Source of the DNA: Boletus sp. NGJ | Lineage: Eukaryota; Basidiomycota; Agaricomycetes; Boletales; Boletaceae | Assembly: GCA_019096195.1 (NCBI GenBank) | Contig: JAGTXK010000185.1 | Coordinates: forward strand, 62,001 to 126,000 | Direction: 5' to 3' | DNA: 64,000 nucleotides | Shown: positions 18,244 to 21,491 of the stretch, piece by piece | Position numbering within the stretch: position 1 is the stretch's first letter | Layout: every line of letters starts with the position of its first letter | Made by a program: the position numbers and the translations under genes | The notes under the pieces: model-generated | The model's input: the letters and a program-made list of their open reading frames with translations, nothing else | Database searches by the model: none | What the model was told of the DNA's origin: nothing

Positions 18244-21192
18244 TCATTGACCACCCAGGTTCACTGGAAACGTGTCATTCAGGCTCTGTCGGTTTGCCGA
18301 CTCTCGCAGGAGATGCCGCACGTCTGCAATGTGACGATGATCACCCCGCCAGATGCCGTCCTCACCACGTTCGCCCCAGTGGAAAGTATGAAACGTGTCC
18401 ACCTCGTAGCCTTCGGTCCATTTCTGCCTCACGAACGACGCATTGAACGGAGGTTGGTAAATCCACCACTGTTGGGCATTCAAAACTCAGTCGTCGATCG
18501 GGAAGAGGGGAGAAAGAGACGGAAACGGAAACGGAAGAGCGAATAATCACGTACATGGTCCACGAACTGGATCGATTCTCCGGGGGGGACGACGAGGTGG
18601 ACAGTCGTCGGCGTCGCAATCTCCAGAAAGCAATCGGTATCGAGGAACAGCGCTAATACGTCCATGAACGCCTTGCGATGCCGGCCCGGAATGTACAGCG
18701 TATCCGCGGAGCCACCGATAAGCCTCGTCTGTCCGTTATTGAGCTCAGCGAGGTGCACACGCATAGCCTCGGGAACCTTGCGAAAAGCGTTCATGCATAC
18801 AGACACGCCCACATGGGGGTCGCTGATAGAAAAATAGTCAATGGTGATGACCATACGGGGTAATCGGCGTGCGACTTACCCCCACCTAAAATCGGAGAGT
18901 TAACTTATTCAGTCGTGCGATGATCTGATTTCTATTGGTGACTTACCACCAGTCAGGGCCCCAGCCCCTCCATGTTGCTGTGAGATTGATGGATGTATCG
19001 GGAGATATCATCGCAGGAGGGGCATGTCGGGTGATGTTCAGGACGGGTTCTGTTAGGTCGCCAAGGGTGGGATTCGGAACGGGCTGTCCCCAAGGAGAAT
19101 GGTACCAAAACAAGCTTTGATTGAATCTCTGGAGTCGAGGAATATTAAGGAGTGTATCGAAAGGCACCCAGAGATAACCATCATAGCAGCCATGTTCTCG
19201 CAAAGCTGTGTAGAGCATGTGGTGGGCCATCTGGGCGAATGATGAGGACTTGCCTACTCCGGTAGATAACGGTGTGTACTCACCCGTCCTGCCATCCTAT
19301 AAGAAAAAGGGTCGTTGAGATCTTCTTCTGATTGAAACGAGTCAACAAGGACATCGTAAGAATGAGCAAACCCTTTATCATCGCGGCTTGCAGGGCCGAT
19401 ATAAACAATCTAAGTATATCAGTCATCGCGTGGATAGATCCCACTGTTCTAATTACTCACGTTCGGGAAATAATCCGCATACACTTCTCTATGAAAGTCC
19501 AGGTTGGTATCATACCTGGCGTGGCTAAAAAACACGATGAGTAGGATGTTGTTGAAATGAGTATAATTAGTGATAGTCTGCGCATGAGTCAGAGTCGATG
19601 ATTCCGGAGAACGGCAGTCGGAACGATTCCTCGACAGGCCAGATAACTTTGTTTGCATGGGGGACAAGTCCGAGGAATTAGTCCCGGAGTTCTGGGATAT
19701 GACCACGATAATGTATCCCAATGCCACCAAATATATCAGCACAGCTGCAAAACATCGACGAACCTGTGGTCCATACATTCAACGACAAAATTCCGGTATT
19801 TCGGAATGAGAGGCTTACTGAAATGAAGAGATCATGCTGAGCCTGCTGTTCGTCTGTGAGTTTCCCGCTCAGAACAAATACGCCAGATCCAAGGATGGCG
19901 ATCAGACATCCAAGAAATGCGGAATACGGAGCTTCGAGGAGCCTCCACGTGTCAACGGTAACTAGAAAGGTCGACGCCAATGAAATAAGAATCCCCTGAG
20001 TAATCGCACCATATTCTGCGACGCATAAGATCGTAATAGCATCAATGAATGACCAGTCACTCACGCTGTATAATAAATATTGCTACGATGTCTTTTGCCG
20101 CCTCAATTAAAGGCAATGCTTCTAGTGTGACTGCGAAACGATTGATGTATGAATGCGAGATGCTATGTGATGGATGCAATATAAACAATAAAGAATGTAC
20201 GAGGCACGATTGCACGAATATTGCAGTGTTGATGAGATGAACGGATGGCGAGCGATGAAGCTCATAAATCTAGTTACGCATGTTATTAGACATATTGAAA
20301 TGGTAGTAAATTACGAACCAGGTTAACGAGAGATATCCATATTGAGTTGCAAAGAGCGAACGCAAACAAAAGACTGTAGGATGGAGGGACCGAACCAACA
20401 AGGGCCTCCTTTTGAATGTTGATCGATAACTTAGCCGACACTGCGCAAATCAGGCTTCTAAGGTTGGCTTACCCTAGTAATGAAGAACCCTGCAAACTGA
20501 CGTCAGAGTGAGCTTGGCATTCTAAGGCGACATCTATTTGGGACACCACGAACTTGGAGGACAGTCGCATGCCAGAAAGAAGAAGGGAAAAATTGCCAGG
20601 AATTGATTCGCAAAATGGAAAGGATGCCCAGAACTATCACAGGGAAAGCGAGGCACAGAGTAAAAGGGTCGGCGAACTCTCGAGTCCTGAGATCCTGTGG
20701 GAACAGATACATTCTTAGTCAATGCATCCGTTAAATAGGAGCCAGCTTTAGCCGAGTGCACGTACGATATGAGCACGGAGATTGTACACCAGAGCGACGG
20801 CGAGAATAAACAGGGGCAGTCGCACGCTTCCGAGGGATGAAGTGACTATATTTGATCGAGAATATGGTTCTCGGCAATTAGAGCAAGTCCTGGAGATGGG
20901 AAAGTCTTGTTCGTGCTCGTGAAAGAGTGCGTTACGCGTTGGGAGGTGTGATTCAGAGGAACCACCAGATGCGACGGCGATAGTCGATAAGGTGTCTATG
21001 TCTCGGAATTGCCGGCAGACAAACCATATGGACAGGGAAAGTATGGACTTGACGAGGTCGCTTGCAGCGAAGTCAAGGCTGTCTTGGTGAGCTTGAGGCC
21101 GTCTCTCTTGAGTCCATCGTATAGCCTCTGCCAGTAAACACAGCACCAGGAAGGTGACCTGCAATCGCAATTCGAGCGCTGCAACCTGTAAG
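18244..21192 (-). CDS. multi-span transporter-like protein fused to a glycosyltransferase-like domain (5' exon unresolved)
   Basis: Read on the minus strand as one multi-exon gene. The N-terminal part (about 21190-19700) has ten hydrophobic segments, among them RLQVTFLVLCLLAEAI, SDLVKSILSLSIWFV, LPLFILAVALVYNL, AFPVIVLGILSIL, YSAFLGCLIAILGSGVFVL and CFAAVLIYLVALGYIIVVI, like a nucleotide-sugar transporter. The C-terminal part (about 19690-18244) starts with FSHARYDTNLDFHREVYADY and continues with GPASRDDKGFAHSYDVLVDS, MAGRMAHHML, CYDGYLWVPFD, FWYHSPWG and GGSADTLYIPGRHRKAF, which I read as a luminal glycosyltransferase; family unsure. The parts join through a 55-nt intron (19764-19818, GTAAGC donor, CACAG acceptor, phase 0). 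A Met at 19778 that could start a separate gene lies inside this intron. The first coding exon upstream of 21192 was not found. Confidence 0.6.
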
Positions 21193-21491
21193 GGAAATTT
21201 TTACACCCACCATCAATGCTGCCCTTGGACATGAGAAGACACGGCGACATGTTCTCAAAGGAGCAAGAACGACACTGGACATTGACAGATACGAACACGC
21301 TAGGCTGGATTACCCTCGGGGCAAACCACAACAAAAAGTCTGTAAAAAAAATTAAATGGAGTCAGAGAAGCCACCGCGTACAATGTCAATGTGTTACATT
21401 GGATGACGTCACAATCCCGGTTCACAGATACAATTCCAACGTAGATCGTCGTTCTCTCTCATACACGCTACTTAGTGCACTTGTGTACCAT

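Follow-up and report, generated by a model that had tools for sequence, protein, structure and literature searches.

A mushroom gene joining a nucleotide-sugar-transporter-like domain and a predicted glycosyltransferase domain in one polypeptide

In the animal Golgi, SLC35A2 is said to form an assembly with B4GalT1. According to an excerpt of PMC6453868, SLC35A2, SLC35A3 and SLC35A4 associate non-covalently with MGATs. For SLC35A1, an excerpt of PMC8411240 reports E52, K55, Y214, K124, T128, S188 and K272 as critical; N210 is not required in SLC35A1, whereas its SLC35A2 counterpart is required (same excerpt). Here we describe a gene of Boletus sp. NGJ that encodes a transporter-like half and a glycosyltransferase-like half in a single chain. 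It is located in a 64,000-nt stretch of DNA, hereafter the window (assembly GCA_019096195.1, contig JAGTXK010000185.1, positions 62,001 to 126,000 of the forward strand), and positions below are those of the window.

The fusion gene is real and is conserved across many Agaricomycetes of several orders. In brief, it is encoded on the minus strand (21282-18244) and comprises 13 exons, giving a 777-aa protein with zero internal stops in the gene model. The 12 introns are 49-86 nt each, all GT-AG, and total 705 nt. The two halves meet at intron 7, which has the donor GTAAGC and the acceptor CACAG and connects ...DLFIS with VRRCF.... An in-frame ATG at 19778, the opener of the right-hand frame (MYGPQ/VRRCF), sits within this intron. 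An earlier, sequence-only reading of the window had joined the two frames through the same intron and placed the right-hand Met inside it. Donor, acceptor, phase and the position of the Met were all as it described, and homologs align through the junction. Its right-hand limit at 21192 was wrong: this position falls inside intron 1 (21210-21159), exon 1 was missed, and alignment to the N-terminus of homolog P0001 sets the coding start at 21282. A 25-nt intron (21210-21186) was also considered as intron 1 and dropped, since P0001 supports a 52-nt intron ending at 21159. When the 32.8-Mb genome was searched in six frames, at least 10 matches came up, each at this locus.

If intron 7 were retained, the product would be the transporter-like half plus a tail of 46 aa, without the enzyme; a start at 19778 would yield the enzyme alone. 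Judged from the sequence, a splicing switch is conceivable.

Homologs were searched with an early 762-aa spliced protein lacking exon 1 (E <= 1e-3; scoring was limited to the 7994 candidates with the most shared words). A half was counted as present when at least 250 of 374 (N half) or 320 of 403 (enzyme half) residues aligned to the final model. Both halves were present in 68 of the 93 homologs; 22 more were partial, and in 3 the N half was missing. Among the matches listed, the window protein is closest to Boletaceae, with Chiua virens at 69% (query coverage 99%); the enzyme half matches Boletus edulis and Imleria badia at 86%. Two homologs, P0021 and P0086, come from Pleurotus ostreatus. 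Four proteins from "lgn" contigs hold the whole fused frame, with only 179-330 nt left beyond the coding length. The introns of the window gene add up to 705 nt, more than twice this spare length, so the four are most simply spliced transcripts. The named homologs are, as we take it, all Agaricomycetes, and belong to Boletales, Polyporales, Russulales, Hymenochaetales, Agaricales, Auriculariales and Cantharellales, among others. No relatives outside Agaricomycetes were recognised among the named matches, in searches that need shared 5-residue words and in which many matches are unnamed.

Computation on homologs shows residues 1-374 as a predicted ten-helix drug/metabolite transporter (DMT) or nucleotide-sugar transporter (NST) fold of SLC35A type. 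In homolog P0002, the predicted structure has ten membrane helices, mostly of high confidence, and then an eleventh before the enzyme domain; the ten hydrophobic segments and the DMT fold proposed earlier for the left piece are thus borne out on homologs. A relation to characterised transporters is also found at the sequence level. An hmmsearch with alignment A1 matches 6i1r (E 2.2e-9), and hhalign against a template of two canonical transporters from the same genome gives E 5.7e-10 globally and 1.2e-7 locally, each a single comparison. PF04142 gave no match for the 762-aa window protein, nor for 63 members at E up to 0.1. Alignment A1 holds 63 of the 93 homologs and alignment A4 holds 62 of 180; fragments, merged models, many skipped-exon models and some near-duplicates were removed by hand.

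For the last approximately 355 residues, the same kind of computation shows a predicted GT-A glycosyltransferase domain, nearest to GT31 and GT14, in line with the earlier proposal of a luminal enzyme of glycosyltransferase fold. Structural alignments to CHSY3, B3GalT5, B3GNT2, C1GalT1, C2GnT-L and XylT1, which we take to be GT31 and GT14 members in CAZy, have 7-11% identity. A viral structure library gave weak matches, two of them at E <= 0.001, and several are named glycosyltransferases. Sequence profiles were silent. No Pfam glycosyltransferase family matched the 63 full or 6 C-half sequences, and Pfam STELLO (PF03385) was not among the matches of the window protein or of either set. Pfam on single exons and a PDB search by spliced sequence gave no match, and a PDB profile search returned a single chain (E 0.29), which is not a glycosyltransferase. 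STELLO, Galactosyl_T and Fringe gave no match in the Boletus genome either, in a search whose controls were silent too and which is hence uninformative. The window protein has no Pfam match, and its named relatives in databases are mostly labelled "hypothetical" or "unnamed"; mushrooms would thus appear to possess a glycosyltransferase family that has not been described.

Residues invariant in 63 of 63 sequences are P, F, D, L and N of APFDTLLN, E of FLE and, in DHWW, the His and one Trp; all are candidate donor-binding or catalytic residues. The APFDTLLN and FLE stretches may correspond to GT31 motifs such as the metal-binding DxD and the catalytic base.

Glycosylation sites are concentrated in the enzyme half: in the window protein, N-x-S/T is absent from the first 374 residues and occurs eight times after transmembrane helix (TM) 11. 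Across 67 sequences including that of the window, the density is 0.36 per 100 aa in the N half versus 0.83 in the enzyme half, and 0.37 when the C parts are shuffled. Loop charges leave the orientation of some helices unsettled. An N-in ten-helix transporter followed by TM11 would leave the enzyme on the luminal side, where a Golgi transferase has to be.

We suggest that the gene encodes a Golgi fusion protein in which the transporter-like half handles a pyrimidine nucleotide or nucleotide sugar for the luminal transferase of the same chain, and we give this reading a probability of a little under one half (about 0.48). In brief, one gene would give one membrane protein of the secretory pathway, most likely of the Golgi. 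The transporter-like half would bind a pyrimidine nucleotide, either a uridine diphosphate (UDP)-sugar or the by-product uridine monophosphate (UMP), and carry it across the membrane. The eleventh helix would bring the chain into the lumen, with the enzyme domain following. The carried nucleotide would supply or clear the attached transferase, which would transfer a sugar onto a glycan, either secreted or of the cell wall. A more specific form, held only tentatively, is that of a single-chain donor importer and glycosyltransferase, kept across mushroom-forming fungi, in which a pyrimidine nucleotide sugar would be channelled straight to the protein's own luminal enzyme.

The residues of the predicted pocket bear on this most directly. 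The register was taken from the HMMER alignment from TM3 on and from an hhalign comparison with two canonical transporters of the Boletus genome; this comparison covers TM2 too. The E52 column is acidic in 51 of 53 sequences (E 46, D 5, other 2; D in the window protein), the K55 column has K in 48/53, and the N210 column has N in 47/58, the window protein having K and N, respectively. The TM2 acidic/Lys pair and the TM7 Asn rank among the best-conserved positions of the N half. Several results weigh against the suggested function. The column of Y214, which belongs to the nucleobase pocket in SLC35A1, holds F in 50 and W in 8 of 58 sequences. K is found in 0/56 at K124 (TM4) and in 0/63 at K272 (TM9; E 23, V 13, L 9, rest mixed), and T in 5/56 at T128. 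The mean identity to the window protein is 20% in the N half versus 60% in the enzyme half (81 of the 93 homologs, those in which each half aligned over more than 150 residues). EamA matched in one of the 63 members only (9.9e-5), and no Pfam transporter model matched the 762-aa window protein. For the enzyme half, Foldseek alone gave no match at E <= 0.001 (best 1.5e-3), and a single invariant Asp stands at the DxD-like place, as against the DDD-type motif of GT31 enzymes. Taken together, the base-holding part of the putative pocket is largely kept, and the lysines that would contact phosphate and sugar are gone. The earlier idea of an importer coupled to its own transferase is plausible but unproven: the largely kept nucleobase pocket speaks for it, whereas the missing lysines and the low N-half identity do not.

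In the TM2-TM3 loop, encoded in exon 2 and otherwise variable, most members retain the motif E..PL (in A1, E 38/52, P 33/51, L 44/53). This is possibly a sorting signal.

The N half could instead be a non-transporting, NST-derived module that serves in Golgi placement, oligomerisation or nucleotide sensing, the donor being brought by the ordinary transporters of the cell. Both sugar-pocket lysines are absent from every sequence with a letter there, the N half diverges fast, and the same genome encodes at least two canonical PF04142 transporters with the TM4 and TM9 lysines intact (G000:C22, 780619-781635 and 952911-953959; L002-L004). The helices of the P0002 N half are nevertheless mostly predicted with high confidence, and a plain anchor would need neither the TM2 acidic/Lys pair nor the TM7 Asn, both of which are well conserved. 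Because the base pocket is largely kept, the lysines are lost and the N half diverges faster, our belief is split between an altered working transporter and a transporter-derived anchor or sensor. We regard the latter as a serious possibility, with the odds against it.

It is also conceivable that the N half works on another substrate, for example by exporting a nucleotide by-product or by carrying a substrate that has fewer phosphates, and supports the transferase without donor import. A largely kept nucleobase pocket with lost phosphate- and sugar-contacting lysines would fit this, and the choline importer LicB and PfCRT have the same fold. The fold match extends to the whole superfamily, however, and we consider this reading unlikely.

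A two-gene arrangement, in which the transporter gene stops before 19819 and a type II glycosyltransferase begins at the ATG at 19778, is very improbable. That start codon does lie in intron 7, and separate N and C proteins exist on contigs of equal size (P0182/P0096, 1143339; P0184/P0095, 341568), from Boletus edulis BED1 and Imleria badia. Of the six short proteins that a search with the N half found, three are named (two from Boletus edulis, one from Imleria badia). A search with the enzyme half, under a length limit that shuts out full-length fused proteins, adds more enzyme-only proteins, and some, e.g. in Mycena, may be real. The N pieces, however, do not look like finished transporters. 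By eye, P0181 continues past the window intron site 20318 and P0184 past 20553, as if both ran into introns, P0182 departs from the family sequence near TM9, and all three stop short of the end of the ten-helix domain. The C pieces P0095 and P0096 begin within TM11, and the enzyme-only models inspected start at varying places, some of them in the transporter half (P0099, P0102). We take most of the separate pieces as broken gene models; gene damage in some strains or enzyme-only Mycena copies are possible. Homologs are not consistently encoded as two proteins: 68 of 93 are joined, the transcript-like contigs carry the joined frame, and the two-piece records in close relatives mostly look broken.

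The fusion with its proposed pyrimidine-nucleotide handling remains our preferred reading, and its exons are listed in Table 1. Exon 11 is flanked by the introns GTAAGT...TTTTAG and GTAAGT...TATCAG. Its inclusion gives DWWWGDPHVG and its skipping DWCDPHV. Skipping, as in P0001, was rejected, since the four transcript-like homologs have DWWWG. A loose pattern search of 180 proteins gave 73 included-like and 17 skipped-like proteins (14 DWCDPH, 3 DWWSP); the other 90 are fragments and other variants, e.g. P0098 and P0107. Gene predictors seem to drop exon 11 often, and those genes would carry the same 6-nt exon. An excerpt of PMC11121469, on a Trichoderma microexon, reports functional microexons as previously undescribed in filamentous fungi.

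Table 1. Exons of the fusion gene and the junction intron, in window positions
Feature	Position	Strand	Basis or remark
Exon 1, start codon at 21282 (MSSVVLAPLRTCRRVFSCPRAALM)	21211..21282	-	aligned to start of P0001; beyond the limit of the sequence-only reading
Exon 2, TM1-TM3 region of transporter-like half	20766..21158	-	homolog alignment; helices via comparison with P0002
Exon 3, TM4-TM5 region	20554..20694	-	gene model
Exon 4, 24 nt (FAGFFITR), within TM5	20473..20496	-	gene model; corresponding residues in homologs
Exon 5, TM6 region	20319..20408	-	gene model
Exon 6, TM7-TM8 region; Asn and Phe at SLC35A1 N210/Y214 positions	20065..20269	-	gene model, alignment
Exon 7, TM9-TM10, end of transporter-like half (...DLFIS)	19819..20015	-	gene model
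Intron 7, 55 nt, phase 0, half-to-half junction	19764..19818	-	gene model
Exon 8, TM11 and beginning of predicted luminal GT-A domain	19461..19763	-	gene model; P0002 predicted structure
Exon 9, predicted GT-A domain	19284..19409	-	gene model
Exon 10, predicted GT-A domain with CYDGYLWVPFDTLLN, candidate DxD-like motif place	18947..19230	-	gene model; invariant residues 63/63
Exon 11, 6-nt microexon GTGGGG, completes DWWWGDPHVG	18880..18885	-	gene model; homolog residues
Exon 12, predicted GT-A domain with GGSADT and CFLEIATPT	18555..18822	-	gene model
Exon 13, end of predicted GT-A domain, stop codon 18246-18244	18244..18468	-	gene model

Directly upstream, also on the minus strand, lies a gene for 3-deoxy-D-arabino-heptulosonate 7-phosphate (DAHP) synthase (PF00793; 21492-22766, in the pieces 22766-22053 and 21806-21492). 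P0023 (Athelia sp.) and P0029 (Pleurotus djamor) have a DAHP synthase domain at the start, followed by the sequence of the fusion family. We read these as merged gene models, and they therefore suggest that the DAHP synthase neighbourhood is conserved across orders.

An earlier description of a transporter-glycosyltransferase fusion was not found among the matches listed in the PMC literature; in an excerpt of PMC9368800, "fusion" refers to tags, cell fusion and laboratory chimeras. The folds are known and their covalent combination looks new. The N half has the predicted ten-helix DMT/NST fold of SLC35A1 and SLC35A2, and by fold of Vrg4, and it shares with SLC35A the TM2 acidic-x-x-Lys and the TM7 Asn in most members as well as the profile match. 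Unlike SLC35A, the window family lacks the TM4 and TM9 sugar-pocket lysines and the PF04142 match, has Phe or Trp in place of the TM7 Tyr/Gly, and carries a C-terminal extra helix and enzyme domain. The enzyme half resembles GT31 and GT14 enzymes in its predicted GT-A fold and predicted luminal position behind a membrane helix. It differs from them in having no sequence-profile match, in being tied to a transporter-like domain and in the single invariant Asp at the DxD-like place.

If the N half is dead, a transporter has been reused as an enzyme anchor. Direct hand-over of a donor from a transporter to a Golgi transferase has so far been studied in non-covalent complexes, and would here be testable in one polypeptide. 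As in the animal Golgi assemblies of SLC35A2/A3/A4 with MGATs and reportedly of SLC35A2 with B4GalT1, a donor transporter would be paired with a transferase. Those are separate polypeptides, whereas the mushroom protein is one covalent chain in many Agaricomycetes. If channelling is true, it would be a covalent counterpart of what animals assemble from separate proteins.
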